Source: Microcystis viridis FACHB-1342
Lineage (GTDB): Bacteria; Cyanobacteriota; Cyanobacteriia; Cyanobacteriales; Microcystaceae
Assembly: GCF_014698335.1 (NCBI RefSeq)
Contig: NZ_JACJSV010000028.1
Location: forward strand, 1 to 54,823
Length of the DNA stretch: 54,823 nt
Direction of reading: 5' to 3'
Position numbers and translations under genes: made by a program. The notes under the pieces were generated by a model, which saw nothing but the letters and a program-made list of their open reading frames with translations, made no database searches and was not told the origin of the DNA. This document shows, piece by piece, positions 1,168 through 5,172 of the stretch; the first letter of the stretch is position 1, and every line of letters begins with the position of its first letter.

Positions 1168-1224
1168 TCAACCTTCTCGCTCATTTTCTTCGAGAATTTC
1201 TTGATAGATGACGGATTCTCCCAT
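1168..1224 (-). pseudogene. Truncated third copy of Rpn C-terminal tail (18 aa)
   Basis: This is a short ORF, MGESVIYQEILEENEREG then TGA. It matches the first 18 residues of the tail domain encoded at 1229-1438 and at the end of the nuclease gene 1443-2252. It has the same GGAG, 7 nt, ATG ribosome-binding layout (GGAG complement at 1232-1235, ATG complement at 1222-1224). It stops 4 nt from the convergent TPR gene stop. It may be a decayed copy or a very short product; I favour a remnant. Confidence 0.5.
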
Positions 1225-1228
1225 AATC

Positions 1229-1438
1229 CTACTCCGAAAGATATTTCTGATCTTCTCTCGGTTGTAATTGCTCGATCGCGTCGGGGGATAAATCGGTAAA
1301 TTGGGCGATTTCTGGGACAGGAAACCCAGCAGATAGCATTTTTAGGGCAATTTGTCGAGCTTTTTCGTCTTTGCCCTTTTGTAGTCCTTTTTCCTCGCCT
1401 TCCTCTAAAATATCTTGATAGATGACGGATTCTCTCAT
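1229..1438 (-). CDS. Free-standing Rpn C-terminal tail protein (69 aa)
   Basis: A 69-aa ORF corresponding to the C-terminal domain of the nuclease encoded just upstream (1443-2252). Both begin MRESVIYQDILEEG, pass through a charged E/G/K-rich coiled segment, and end in a helical motif, ARQIALKMLSAGF then PEIAQFTDLSP, that looks helix-turn-helix-like. The free copy lacks one REEG unit and differs at a few residues. A good Shine-Dalgarno (GGAG, complement of 1446-1449) lies 7 nt before the ATG, and the start is 4 nt after the stop of the nuclease gene, so translation is plausible. The catalytic D and ExQ residues are absent, so it cannot be a nuclease. By analogy with the C-terminal small forms reported for E. 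coli Rpn proteins it could inhibit the full-length enzyme. That role is inference; a passive duplication remnant is the alternative. Confidence 0.6.
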   Translation of the reverse strand: MRESVIYQDILEEGEEKGLQKGKDEKARQIALKMLSAGFPVPEIAQFTDLSPDAIEQLQPREDQKYLSE

Positions 1439-1442
1439 AATG

Positions 1443-2252
1443 TCACTCCGAAGGATTTTTTTTATCGTCTCTCGATTGTAATTCCTCGATAGTTGCGGGG
1501 GATAAATCGGTAAATTGGGCGATTTCTGGGATAGAAAAGCCAGCAGATAGCATTTTTAGGGCAATTTGTCGAGCTTTTTCCTCTTTACCTTTTTGTAGTC
1601 CCTTTTCTTCCCCTTCCTCTCTGCCTTCCTCTAAAATATCTTGATAGATGACGGATTCTCTCATAATGTCACTCCGAAGGATTTTTTTAATCGTCTCTCG
1701 ATTTAATACTAACCCGGCGAGAATGCTGGTAGCGGCAGCGAGATTGCTTTGCACCTGTTTTTGGGAGATAGTTTCTAAAGAACGGGACACCAGACTTAAC
1801 ACCTGTTCAGGGTCATCGGTATTGCTGAGGACGGCAAAGGGTAATAAACCGGGATGATGGAAAAATTGTGGTGTATTTTCTTCCCAAAGACGGATGACTT
1901 GGAAGGAATGAAAGGTTTCCCCCAGACGGAAGGTATTTTCTTGTACTAGGGGGGAATCACTGCGTCGCAGATAAATTACCACTTGACGCATTTGTTTTTG
2001 GGGATGACGACGATAGACGCGAATGCGATAATCAAGCATTCGGAAAGGAATTTTGGAGTCGGGATCGGTTTGAAATTCGGTATGGAGAATTAAATGCTCT
2101 GACTGCAAAAAAATCAGAGAATCGGCACGAATGGGGTCTAATTGTAATTCCGTCGGGTCGAGGACGGTTAAGGAGAGGGGAGAACCCAACAACCAAGTGG
2201 CTAGATCATCGGAGAAGTTTTCGGCGATAAATTTACAAATATTATCAAACAT
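1443..2252 (-). CDS. Rpn-family PD-(D/E)XK nuclease (transposase-like)
   Basis: A 269-aa protein of the Rpn/DUF4351-like superfamily of PD-(D/E)XK nucleases, implicated in DNA cleavage, recombination and, in E. coli, phage defence. The N-terminal catalytic part carries the D...ExQ signature: D44 in RADSLIFL, then E59-F-Q61 in HTEFQ. A helical region follows (about 90-190), then an acidic EEGREEGEEKG linker and the tail ARQIALKMLSAGF / PEIAQFTDLSP (about 197-269). The ATG overlaps the end of the upstream frameshifted DUF2887 gene by 8 nt with no strong Shine-Dalgarno, suggesting translational coupling. Met197 is preceded by GGAG at 7 nt, so the tail may also be made alone. The tail is repeated downstream as separate ORFs. 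Family assignment is good; the biological role is not established. Confidence 0.8.
   Translation of the reverse strand: MFDNICKFIAENFSDDLATWLLGSPLSLTVLDPTELQLDPIRADSLIFLQSEHLILHTEFQTDPDSKIPFRMLDYRIRVYRRHPQKQMRQVVIYLRRSDSPLVQENTFRLGETFHSFQVIRLWEENTPQFFHHPGLLPFAVLSNTDDPEQVLSLVSRSLETISQKQVQSNLAAATSILAGLVLNRETIKKILRSDIMRESVIYQDILEEGREEGEEKGLQKGKEEKARQIALKMLSAGFSIPEIAQFTDLSPATIEELQSRDDKKNPSE
1662..1675 (-). promoter_or_regulatory. Internal Shine-Dalgarno and ATG inside nuclease gene
   Basis: On the minus strand, GGAG (complement of 1672-1675) is followed by 7 nt and an in-frame ATG (complement of 1662-1664) at codon 197 of the nuclease. The same 26-nt context recurs at 1436-1449, where it drives the free tail ORF and also encodes the last residues of the nuclease in another frame. 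A product from this site would be the 73-aa tail. The site is read directly from the sequence; its use is inferred. Confidence 0.5.
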
Positions 2253-3146
2253 CGTGAGCGTTTTGTCTTTGTAATTGCTCGATAGTTGCGGGGGATAAAT
2301 CGGTAAATCGGGCGATTTCTGGGACAGGAAAGCCAGCAGATAGCATTTTTAGGGCAATTTGTCGAGCTTTTTCGTCTTTGCCTTCCTCTTTACCTTCTTC
2401 TTTGCCTTCCTCTCGGCCTTCCTCTAAAGCTTCTTGATAGACTTTAGTTTCTCTTAAATCACTTAAACTAAACATTTTTTCTATCTCCTTACGGTTTAAT
2501 TTGGGCAATTTATAAATGAGAATTGTCTCAATTAATTCTAGAATGTCCTGTCTTTTTAAAGACTCCTGGAATTGTTGTCTAACTTGTTGAATCAGTTGTT
2601 TTCCTTGAGCTAAGGTATTTTGTTCCGATTCCACAATTAATTGTAACACTTTTACCCCCAGAGAATCCCCCTCATCTAACTGATTCAGATAATAACAGTT
2701 AACCCGTCCTGACTCAAAGAATTCTTGATAACGAGATTTGGGACTATTTTCAATTTCCCGATGGGGATAAATGATCACCCCTTGCCAATTCTGGCTTAAC
2801 TCGCTTTGATGAAAATAGAGAAATATTTCACTAAAAAAGCGCGAGTAAAACCGTTCATCTTTTTGAAATTGTACCTCAACAAAGTAAATCGGGTCATTGA
2901 GGTTATCGGGAAGAAAAACCCCATCTAAACGAAAAGCTAGTTGTTTAACTTCTAGGGAGGAAAATTGATAATGATTGACTGTTTCTGGGGGAAGATTGAG
3001 CAAATCAAAGAAACTTTCGGGAAAAGTCTGAAAGAGACGGAGGAAAATTGATAATGATTGACTGTTTCTGGGGGAAGATTGAGCAAATCAAAGAAACTTT
3101 CGGGAAAAGTCTGAAAGAGATGATAGAAAATACTGTCCGTTTTCAC
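2245..3146 (-). pseudogene. DUF2887 Rpn-like nuclease, frameshifted by 83-bp duplication
   Basis: This is a second DUF2887-type PD-(D/E)XK nuclease. Its GTG start (complement of 3144-3146) and first 36 residues (MKTDSIFYHLFQ...) match the intact paralogue at 3230-4087, but an 83-bp direct duplication shifts the frame. Without the extra unit the gene would be 819 nt, 272 aa, in frame. The rest (from 3003 down) is open and keeps the catalytic D and E-V-Q residues, but its only early start is a TTG without Shine-Dalgarno. The C-terminus is the ARQIALKMLSAGF / PEIARFTDLSP tail shared with the downstream genes, not the tail of its paralogue. An internal ATG at 2475 has AAGGAG 9 nt upstream and would give a 76-aa tail protein. 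Its stop overlaps the next gene by 8 nt. Confidence 0.8.
2956..3121 (-). repeat. 83-bp tandem direct duplication
   Basis: Units 2956-3038 and 3039-3121 are the same sequence (start GGAGGAAAATTG on the plus strand) except at the very end, with a period of exactly 83 bp. As 83 is not a multiple of three, this disrupts the DUF2887 frame. The paralogue at 3230-4087 has a single unit, so the single-copy state is ancestral. Confidence 0.9.
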
Positions 3147-3242
3147 TCAATTTTGTCCTTCAATGACTTGTGCTACTTGTTCAATCTCTAAGTCTAAAGT
3201 TTGGGCAATTTGTTCTATAGTTAATACTATTAATTTAACCAT
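3147..3242 (-). pseudogene. Small tail fragment (31 aa), type C
   Basis: A 31-aa ORF from ATG 3242 ending IEQIAQTLDLEIEQVAQVIE then GQN and TGA, immediately before the GTG of the frameshifted DUF2887 gene. The IEQIAQ...LEIEQVAQV pattern is a tail motif commonly found at the ends of Rpn-like proteins. Here it stands alone, overlapping the 3' end of the upstream nuclease gene by 13 nt. A second copy, interrupted by a small element, lies at about 4087-4245. It is probably a leftover of a third nuclease or a spare tail. Whether it is translated is unknown. Confidence 0.45.
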
Positions 3243-4087
3243 TGTTGCAAATCTTCCAAATCCGAAAAGTCCAATAAAGCAAGAGCTAAATTATCCAGTT
3301 GATTAGGATTTAACTGTTTAATTTTTTGTTCTACCTTTAAAGGAATAGAACCTAGTTTTAAATTTAGCTGACGCAAAATTAGGCTTTTTTTAGCAGATAA
3401 TTCTCCTTCTTCTCTGCCTTCCTCTCTGCCTTCCTCTCGCCCTTCCTCTAAAGCTTCTTGATAGACTTTAGTTTCTCTTAAATCACTTAAACTAAACATT
3501 TTTTCTATCTCCTTACGGTTTAATTTGGGCAATTTATAAATGAGAATTGTCTCAATTAATTCTAGAATGTCCTGTCTTTTTAAAGACTCCTGGAATTGTT
3601 GTCTAACTTGTTGAATCAGTTGTTTTCCTTGAGCTAAGGTATTTTGTTCCGATTCCACAATTAATTGTAACACTTTTACCCCCAGAGAATCCCCCTCATC
3701 TAACTGATTCAGATAATAACAGTTAACCCGTCCTGACTCAAAGAATTCTTGATAACGAGATTTGGGACTATTTTCAATTTCCCGATGGGGATAAATGATC
3801 ACCCCTTGCCAATTCTGGCTTAACTCGCTTTGATGAAAATAGAGAAATATTTCACTAAAAAAGCGCGAGTAAAACCGTTCATCTTTTTGAAATTGTACCT
3901 CAACAAAGTAAATCGGGTCATTGAGGTTATCGGGAAGAAAAACCCCATCTAAACGAAAAGCTAGTTGTTTAACTTCTAGGGAGGAAAATTGATAATGATT
4001 GACTGTTTCTGGGGGAAGATTGAGCAAATCAAAGAAACTTTCGGGAAAAGTCTGAAAGAGACGATAGAAAATACTGTCCGTTTTCAC
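3230..4087 (-). CDS. DUF2887 Rpn-like PD-(D/E)XK nuclease
   Basis: An intact 285-aa member of the DUF2887 family (cyanobacterial Rpn-like nucleases). It starts at GTG 4087; a GAGGG about 10 nt upstream may serve as ribosome site. The nuclease core shows D47 (FRLDGVFLP) and E63-V-Q65 (YFVEVQFQ), followed by conserved FFSEIFLYF and WQGVIIYP segments. A linker of EEGR repeats (around 205-217) leads to a DUF4351-type C-terminus (RQLNLKLGSIP ... LDNLALALLDFSDLEDLQQWL). Nucleotide sequence over about 600 bp looks identical by eye to the adjacent paralogue (2245-3146), but the tails differ. An internal AAGGAG, 9 nt, ATG at 3499 could express the 89-aa tail separately. The function is inferred from the family; the DNA target is unknown. 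Confidence 0.8.
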   Translation of the reverse strand: MKTDSIFYRLFQTFPESFFDLLNLPPETVNHYQFSSLEVKQLAFRLDGVFLPDNLNDPIYFVEVQFQKDERFYSRFFSEIFLYFHQSELSQNWQGVIIYPHREIENSPKSRYQEFFESGRVNCYYLNQLDEGDSLGVKVLQLIVESEQNTLAQGKQLIQQVRQQFQESLKRQDILELIETILIYKLPKLNRKEIEKMFSLSDLRETKVYQEALEEGREEGREEGREEGELSAKKSLILRQLNLKLGSIPLKVEQKIKQLNPNQLDNLALALLDFSDLEDLQQWLN

Positions 4088-4113: not shown

Positions 4114-4220
4114 GTAAGTACCTAAGCAAAATTAATTACACATTTCGATAAAGCTTTTGCCTCTTGCCTATTGCCTCTTGCCTGTCTTCACTAGGAAATT
4201 TATTTTGCATGACTACTTAC
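4114..4220. mobile_element. 107-bp MITE-like insertion
   Basis: Compared with the uninterrupted tail fragment at 3147-3242, 107 bp are inserted here. It begins GTAAGTACCTAAG and ends GACTACTTAC, so the termini are short inverted repeats (GTAAGTA). The core holds four 7-bp units of the GCCTCTT/GCCTATT type. It codes for nothing. The ends resemble those of the larger elements at 38800 and 52934. Confidence 0.6.
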
Positions 4221-4341
4221 TTGTTCAATCTCTAAGTCTAAAGTTTGGGTATAGGAAAGCCAGCAGATAGCATTTTTAGGGCAATTTGTCGAGATTTCTC
4301 TTCTTTGCCCTTTTCCTCTCCTTCCTCTCAAATATCTCGAT
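4221..4341 (-). pseudogene. Decayed Rpn tail debris downstream of dapB
   Basis: On the minus strand, 4250-4341 can be read as EEGEEKGKEEKSRQIALKML then SAGFPIP, clearly the type A tail, with a lost T before GAGAGG and no start. It then joins at CCCAAACTTTAGACTTAGAG to the type C tail motif. It is a recombination scar between two tail types. It lies directly after the dapB stop. Confidence 0.6.
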
Positions 4342-5172
4342 TTAGAGGATTTTTTCTAAACCGTAAATGAGGGATTGCAGCTGAGTAACTTTGCGGATAG
4401 AAAGGAGAACCCCCGGCATATAACAGGAGCGATCGCTGGTATCATGACGAAGGGTATAGATTTCCCCGGGGGAACCGAAAATTACTTCCTGGTGAGCAAT
4501 TAAACCGGGTAAACGGACGCTATGAATACGGATGTTCTCGGCAGTTAAACCGCCTCTAGCGCCGGGGATGGTTTCTTTTTCGGAAACTTGAGCAGGATTA
4601 AAGATTTTACCCAATTCTGCCAGTAATTCGGCGGTTTTAATCGCTGTGCCACTGGGTGCGTCTGCTTTTTGATTGTGATGCAGTTCGATAATTTCTACAT
4701 GATCAAAGTAGCGAGATGCTTGCACGGCAGCCTGTTGTAGTAAAACCATGCCAATGGAAAAATTGGGGATAACTAAACAGCCGGTGCTGGCTTTTTCGGC
4801 AAATTCGGCTAAATCTTGCAGTTGTGCCGCCGATAATCCCGTAGTTCCCACCACCGGACGCACTCCATAGGCGATCGCACTGCGGGTATTGTCATAAACA
4901 CCGTCGGGATGGGTAAAATCCACCATCACCCCCTGCACTTTTTCCTGAGTTGCCAGGACTAAAACACTCTGTAAATCGTCGAGAATCGGCACTTCTAGGG
5001 GTTCACAACCGGCCACTTCTCCCACATCCTGACCTCGAAAAGCTGGATTTCGATCCACTGCACCCACTAGGATCATATCGTCGGCACGAGCAACGGCTTT
5101 AATGACTTCCCGTCCCATTTTGCCGGCTGCACCGTTGACAACCACGGGAATCGGGTTTCTATTTTCGGTCAT
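4342..5172 (-). CDS. dapB: 4-hydroxy-tetrahydrodipicolinate reductase
   Basis: DapB reduces 4-hydroxy-tetrahydrodipicolinate with NAD(P)H in the diaminopimelate/lysine pathway, in the cytosol. The 276-aa length is usual. The N-terminal Rossmann motif [12 protein letters not shown] (residues 12-23) binds the cofactor. [16 protein letters not shown], the catalytic segment [15 protein letters not shown] (around 162-176) and the C-terminal [17 protein letters not shown] are all present. It starts at ATG with AAGGAGAATAATT upstream. It is transcribed alone on the minus strand, and its 3' end abuts nuclease-tail debris. Confidence is high. Confidence 0.97.

Follow-up and report, generated by a model that had tools for sequence, protein, structure and literature searches.

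Layout of the Rpn locus

The window analyzed here is a 54,823-nt stretch of Microcystis viridis FACHB-1342 (contig NZ_JACJSV010000028.1, positions 1 to 54,823), which comes from a draft assembly of 138 contigs in which misassembly of repeats is possible. Near its beginning, the minus strand carries a 269-aa gene, a 69-aa ORF and an 18-aa frame, all three present as listed in the initial annotation, together with two DUF2887 genes. The features are as follows.

1443..2252, minus strand: Rpn-family nuclease gene (RpnL-like, 269 aa), with a PD-(D/E)XK-type head and a repeat-bearing tail (TIGR01784 match)
1443..1664, minus strand: 73-aa RpnS-like tail ORF within the gene, beginning at codon 197 and bearing three four-residue repeats (ORF list and repeat count)
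1672..1675, minus strand: ribosome-binding motif (GGAG) preceding the internal ATG at 1664 by 7 nt (synonymous constraint in homologues)
1229..1438, minus strand: 69-aa free-standing tail gene with two four-residue repeats (ORF, repeat count and match to PDB 7TH0)
1446..1449, minus strand: GGAG of the free tail, also within the last codons of the upstream 269-aa gene (sequence)
1168..1224, minus strand: truncated 18-aa tail remnant with a diverged leader (ORF and leader comparison)
2245..3003, minus strand: DUF2887 Rpn-like gene, a head-tail chimera whose C-terminus is the tail type of 1443–2252 (internal AAGGAG-N9-ATG at 2475)
3230..4087, minus strand: DUF2887 Rpn-like paralogue, with a head near-identical to that of 2245–3003 and a DUF4351 tail (domain profiles; internal AAGGAG-N9-ATG at 3499)

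The start of 1443–2252 is overlapped by 2245–3003 across 8 nt, and the free-tail ATG at 1438 lies 4 nt past the stop of the 269-aa gene; from this spacing, the DUF2887 genes, the 269-aa gene and the 69-aa ORF read like one operon. The Rpn-like set adjoins 4342–5172, which we take to be dapB, and the dapB-linked site is common to three Microcystis loci (L039, L040 and L042). A degenerate tail copy with four stops is found at 4184–4357, where the dapB-like gene ends, on the far side of the DUF2887 genes.

The 269-aa protein was assigned to the Rpn family (TIGR01784/COG5464) by a TIGR01784 score of 118.2 bits against the curated cutoff of 52.1; the Pfam profiles Transposase_31 and DUF2887 match it only below their own cutoffs. 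Regarding the "putative transposase" annotation, transposition has been argued against by Zhong et al. (PMC10327210). D44, E59 and Q61 are conserved in 37/37, 36/37 and 37/37 aligned sequences, respectively, a pattern that is PD-(D/E)XK-type by motif. By the same motif, these residues resemble D63, E82 and Q84 in E. coli RpnA, which loses activities when they are mutated (PMC5350276).

The ATGs at 1664, 1438 and 1224 are each preceded by GGAG seven bases upstream, and their spacings of 226 and 214 nt agree with those first noted. The sequence at the internal start of the 269-aa gene is TTAAATCGAGAGACGATTAAAAAAATCCTTCGGAGTGACATTATG, and the 3' end of the gene is TTACAATCGAGAGACGATAAAAAAAATCCTTCGGAGTGACATTATG, the ATG of which is the start of the free tail. 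The internal and free copies are identical over the 24 nt upstream of the ATG and the 42 nt from its A on, so the recurrence of a 26-nt context, claimed for all three copies, holds for these two; the 18-aa copy has diverged, and its exact run common to either other copy is the ATG plus the 3 nt before it. The repeats listed within 800–2600 include two 214-nt copies with 84% identity. The free tail is an inexact copy with one 12-nt, four-residue repeat fewer (226 vs 214 nt).

Judged from these alignments, the free tail arose by tandem duplication of a segment that begins shortly upstream of the internal start and extends almost to the gene end. The copies were joined out of frame, and as a result of this join the last residues of the first copy are now encoded by the duplicated leader. 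Duplication of this 3' portion would have taken place at the short homology AATCGAGAGACG and brought the internal ribosome site and ATG with it. The junction recurs at other Microcystis loci. Among the 23 intragenic Microcystis tails catalogued, 14 end in QSRDD, 6 in QRQQHN and 1 in QRRNTHDV, the last of which overlaps a second nuclease gene, and 2 (in the window and at L044 5288) are a few residues longer. The 18-aa frame was considered as a third inhibitor copy and rejected as a remnant, its leader being diverged and its frame truncated. The "string" of free tails initially described thus comes down to one intact tail of 69 aa and one decayed remnant.

The similarity of the tail to known antitoxin tails was evaluated using structure chains and profiles. 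Residues 17–55 of the free tail align to residues 6–44 of crystallised E. coli RpnA-S (PDB 7TH0) with E = 0.0027; in the same comparison, the repetitive chain 8vd6 outscored 7TH0 overall (E 2.1e-6), via five individually weak stretches. The tail also matches TIGR01784 positions 215–273 (E 5.3e-11, 42.8 bits, under the whole-protein cutoff of 52.1). By these two matches, to 7TH0 and to the end of TIGR01784, the tail was classed as homologous to RpnS. Zhong et al. 2023 described variable four-residue repeats in Rpn tails (PMC10327210), and the number of such repeats varies from one to seven among the Microcystis tails.

The two DUF2887 genes share 99.5% identity over 201 residues of their heads and differ in their tails, which is of the DUF4351 type in 3230–4087 and of the same type as the 269-aa gene in 2245–3003. 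The repeat-rich region would be a natural exchange point for tails. The motif AAGGAG-N9-ATG at 2475 and 3499, before repeat-bearing tails, suggests that the DUF2887 family may also make a separate tail. In 2245–3003, a short tandem duplication near the N-terminus seems to part the usual start (frame 2952–3146) from the rest; this copy may be truncated, and the listed ORF begins at an internal TTG.

Synonymous codon constraint at the internal start (codon 197)

A perfect GGAG-N7-ATG was reported in frame at codon 197 of 1443–2252, with a predicted 73-aa C-terminal product from the ATG at 1664, and the sequence confirms it. This motif was rejected as stand-alone evidence: it occurs 11 times in the window on both strands, compared with approximately 5.6 expected under a first-order Markov model. 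The case for the internal start comes from a comparison of homologues, not from this count. Homologues of the full-length gene were collected in one genome scan, in which 80 of 127 loci were kept; the internal Met motif was present in 75 frames, which were reduced to 40 representatives at ≤85% identity.

A ribosome-binding motif at the proper distance before the internal Met was found in 72/75 homologues and 37/40 representatives. When synonymous codons were resampled with the peptide fixed, 4.4 of 40 were expected on average, with a maximum of 11 in 500 trials. Ahead of other internal Met codons, used as a control, the motif occurred in 10/150. The Arg four codons before the internal Met is encoded by AGG or CGG in 35 of the 38 representatives with Arg there, compared with approximately 19% elsewhere in the genes. 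The codon routes to the motif differ between clades, e.g., GGAG at 7 nt or GAGG at 9 nt.

Something other than translation might preserve the motif, for instance the encoded peptide or a signal at the DNA or RNA level, and the peptide flanking the internal Met is itself conserved. We regard this as very improbable, because the excess (37 observed vs 4.4 expected) persists with the peptide fixed and the motif is built from different nucleotides in different clades. The internal start is under synonymous constraint across cyanobacteria, which supports translation initiation there. As in the RpnL/RpnS systems, the gene has an internal in-frame start with a ribosome-binding site that, by its sequence, would yield a C-terminal tail.

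Free tails and their repeat numbers

The search of related genomes for free tails beside Rpn genes, which had been proposed as a check, found them in 9 Microcystis pairs, 4 other cyanobacterial loci and E. coli. A-type free tails are present in 7/12 Microcystis genomes, and 3 more have hybrid free tails only, several of these genomes being fragmentary. Eleven Microcystis tails were initially taken as free, and 9 were counted; two in L048 were removed as they follow head remnants in broken genes. L048 is a Microcystis Rpn array with several heads far from tails, long stretches between them and apparently interrupted genes. Hybrid free tails (L038, L042, L043, L044, L048, L050, L051 and L053) lack the shared core and were kept outside the repeat count. 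Those at L038 9619 and 13752, L042 6596, L051 4712 and L053 445 combine an MRESVIYQ start with a different C-terminus; the hybrids look like a sign of further tail shuffling.

The open frame, ATG and GGAG are retained in all 9 counted A-type free tails. The pN/pS of the tail core was 0.46 (bootstrap 0.21–0.89) for the 11 tails classed free, including the two later reclassified to broken genes, and 0.35 (0.16–0.65) for 22 unique intragenic tails. These values suggest purifying selection on both free and intragenic tails, with wide intervals, that of the free tails reaching nearly 0.9, and with the caveat that gene conversion from intragenic tails could keep the free tails tidy.

Among the 80 homologue loci, complete free tails occur at Microcystis loci only; L112 has one degenerate tail, and L122 looks like a frameshifted gene. 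A wider search gave a tail match in 69/195 genomes, and among 20 regions examined from it, a nuclease frame with an adjacent free tail was found in 4 (L166–L169), the nuclease frame of L168 being without its N-terminal part. L170–L172, where the second tail lies in another, longer or more distant frame, were excluded from the count, and L173–L185, with one tail motif or none, were outside it. Short-frame tails with no second tail motif within the examined region were seen at L176, L177 and L178, and may be solitary tails or remnants. Three other cyanobacterial families and E. coli also have separate tails beside Rpn genes.

The repeat numbers of free tails and adjacent nucleases were then compared. 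In the window, the nuclease tail has 3 repeats and the free tail 2. The numbers are equal in 1/9 A-type Microcystis pairs (L044, 4 and 4). None of the four other cyanobacterial loci matched, with lengths that differ by 1, 8, 12 and 4 residues; the difference of one residue, in L166, is not a four-residue unit. In E. coli, 19 rpnE loci were read, 14 of which have a free tail, and 0/14 matched; the 18 loci beyond K-12 were hand-picked from 60 listed, favouring different lengths, and the repeats in the free tail of L146, where the landmark is altered, were counted by eye. For rpnC, 0/8 matched, with 7 distinct length pairs and differences of 6, 8, 10, 14 and 20, not all multiples of four; these loci were chosen from 15 listed (H105–H119) for an apparent second copy. 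Since 4/9 Microcystis pairs come from two-contig genomes (G002, G009 and G011), misassembly is unlikely as a general cause of mismatch.

Under random pairing, 1.44 matches would be expected in Microcystis and 1 was observed, and 0 vs 0.62 was obtained for eight rpnE haplotypes, a grouping of the 14 loci made in this analysis (7 distinct number pairs). As matches stand at the level of random pairing in both sets, active avoidance of matching as a selected trait is unsupported, and the counts reject only the expectation that tails are always matched. An exact repeat block common to a free tail and a nuclease tail in the set was found for 2/9 Microcystis free tails, the window's included, and the other 7 are without one; the block of the window's free tail recurs unchanged in nuclease tails from three other Microcystis genomes.

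One extra repeat on RpnC-S abolishes its inhibition according to Zhong et al. 2023 (PMC10327210). Being one repeat short under this rule, the 69-aa tail is predicted not to neutralise its neighbour, but it might still bind the adjacent RpnL, as the rule was tested by Zhong et al. with RpnC. The proposal that free copies supply extra, dedicated doses of inhibitor for the adjacent nuclease is accordingly doubtful, and we consider it unlikely. It is favoured by the identical leader and start of the free and internal copies, the matched pair in L044 and the expression of the E. coli standalone YpaA/RpnE-S, detected as a protein in K-12 (Zhong et al., PMC10327210). Against it stand the RpnC-S result and the mismatch in 8/9 Microcystis, 4/4 other cyanobacterial, 14/14 rpnE and 8/8 rpnC pairs. 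For rpnE, mismatches may reflect relaxed selection, given that K-12 RpnE was inactive in the assays of Kingston 2017 and RpnC was not (PMC5350276); inactivity alone fails to explain mismatch, because RpnC is unmatched as well. In the text seen of Zhong et al. 2023, a mismatch between the repeat numbers of free tails and their neighbours was not found (PMC10327210).

The free tails could also be neutral debris of an unstable array recombining between tail repeats, with no selected role. The 18-aa remnant, the degenerate tail with four stops at 4184–4357, the hybrid tails and head-tail chimeras, and the random level of repeat matching are all in keeping with this. The intact frames, ATGs and GGAGs of the 9 counted free tails, the pN/pS below 1 and the recurrence of separate tails in other families and E. 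coli speak against it, and we hold it to be possible at a good deal less than even odds.

A standalone RpnS and its relation to known systems

In summary, we read the locus as a toxin–antitoxin locus of the RpnL/RpnS type in which the 69-aa ORF is a divergent standalone RpnS rather than an extra cognate dose, with a probability of roughly 0.7. Sequence analysis established how the locus is built, that part of the gene was duplicated, that the internal start is under synonymous constraint, that the tail resembles RpnA-S and that the repeat numbers differ; for the inhibitory action of tails, and for repeat number as what decides pairing, we draw on Zhong et al. In this bloom-forming cyanobacterium, the 269-aa protein is predicted to be the nuclease toxin, a putative DNA-cutting defence protein, and the internal start at codon 197 to give a matched C-terminal antitoxin RpnS, so that the tail protein encoded within the nuclease gene probably restrains the nuclease. 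The downstream 69-aa ORF would be a standalone rpnS gene, with reinitiation or coupling, 4 nt past the stop of the 269-aa gene, as its probable mode of translation. Its product has one repeat unit fewer and for this reason is predicted to pair with itself or with other tail alleles and not with the adjacent nuclease. On this analysis, the free tail is to be seen as a standalone RpnS of different specificity, or as a spare or neutral cassette.

Free tails may instead act as donors that recombine into the nuclease gene, switching its C-terminus and built-in antitoxin at once. Consistent with such cassettes, the ypaA-type C-terminus is fused to the nuclease in 5/5 examined rpnE loci without a free tail, as fusion predicts; a single tail type is found on two distinct nuclease heads within the window; and exact repeat blocks are common to free and nuclease tails of different strains in 2/9 cases. 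However, the direction of change is not polarised, within-lineage switching was not observed, and such a fusion may be mere deletion, fusion and loss of rpnS having already been noted by Zhong et al. 2023 (PMC10327210). We therefore entertain this explanation as a minority possibility.

More broadly, free Rpn tails in cyanobacteria and E. coli may be non-cognate as a rule, giving immunity to the Rpn alleles of other strains or forming a recombining tail store, with matched copies disfavoured as nuclease-silencing. We put this forward tentatively, as rather less probable than not; the identity of the window's free repeat block to the nuclease tails of three other Microcystis genomes fits it. 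Spare tails are probably not simple extra antitoxin doses, as in the cases examined they are almost never of the neighbour's length. The usual non-matching of free tails to the adjacent nuclease, in the loci examined, is a general, testable oddity.

These results extend the gene-within-gene antitoxin to cyanobacteria via a comparative, experiment-free test of the internal start, and show that unrelated Rpn loci repeatedly have separate tails. That a separate rpnS supplies its neighbour with a second antitoxin is an assumption which the mismatch turns into a testable question, for which E. coli K-12 is directly suited, RpnE and YpaA being one repeat apart.

The arrangement had been presented as undescribed, and here the literature decides otherwise. 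Zhong et al. 2023 reported that RpnS is made from inside rpn genes and inhibits its own RpnL, and that E. coli has separate rpnS genes downstream of rpnE (ypaA) and, in some of its strains, of rpnC (PMC10327210). No further report of separate Rpn tails was found in the titles and abstract openings of the open-access papers that the literature searches listed.

One close likeness is to E. coli rpnE-ypaA, where a nuclease gene with an internal start is followed by its stop codon, a duplicated ribosome site, an ATG and a free tail. The E. coli junction, a stop codon and then AAAAGGAGAGATTAATG and the free tail, has the same anatomy as that of Microcystis, and the free tail likewise differs in repeat number (in K-12 it has one extra, KLEG), whereas the head and junction sequence differ. 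The rpnE loci examined have one free copy where there is any, whereas in Microcystis several heads, tails and chimeras are arrayed together. In 13 of the 14 records with an rpnE-linked free tail (L138–L151, K-12 included), the annotation calls it a pseudogene or incomplete.

E. coli rpnC with its separate rpnC-S also has a free-standing tail downstream of the nuclease, with unmatched repeat blocks in 8/8 loci. Unlike the Microcystis tail, rpnC-S has its own leader and an annotated start about nine residues further upstream; in L158, the gap to the nuclease stop is 68 nt. RpnA-L/RpnA-S (YhgA; PDB 7TH0) is similar in the tail alignment and in the D...ExQ residues of the head, but the sequence similarity is weak; no mention of a separate rpnA-S copy was found in the part of the text of Zhong et al. 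2023 at hand (PMC10327210).

Within the window, the DUF2887/DUF4351 Rpn-like proteins are encoded by adjacent genes that likewise have an internal AAGGAG-N9-ATG and repeat-bearing tails, and differ in head family (PF11103) and, in 3230–4087, in tail domain (PF14261). The locus is a further example of the known RpnL/RpnS type, with separate free tails of the kind already known from E. coli.
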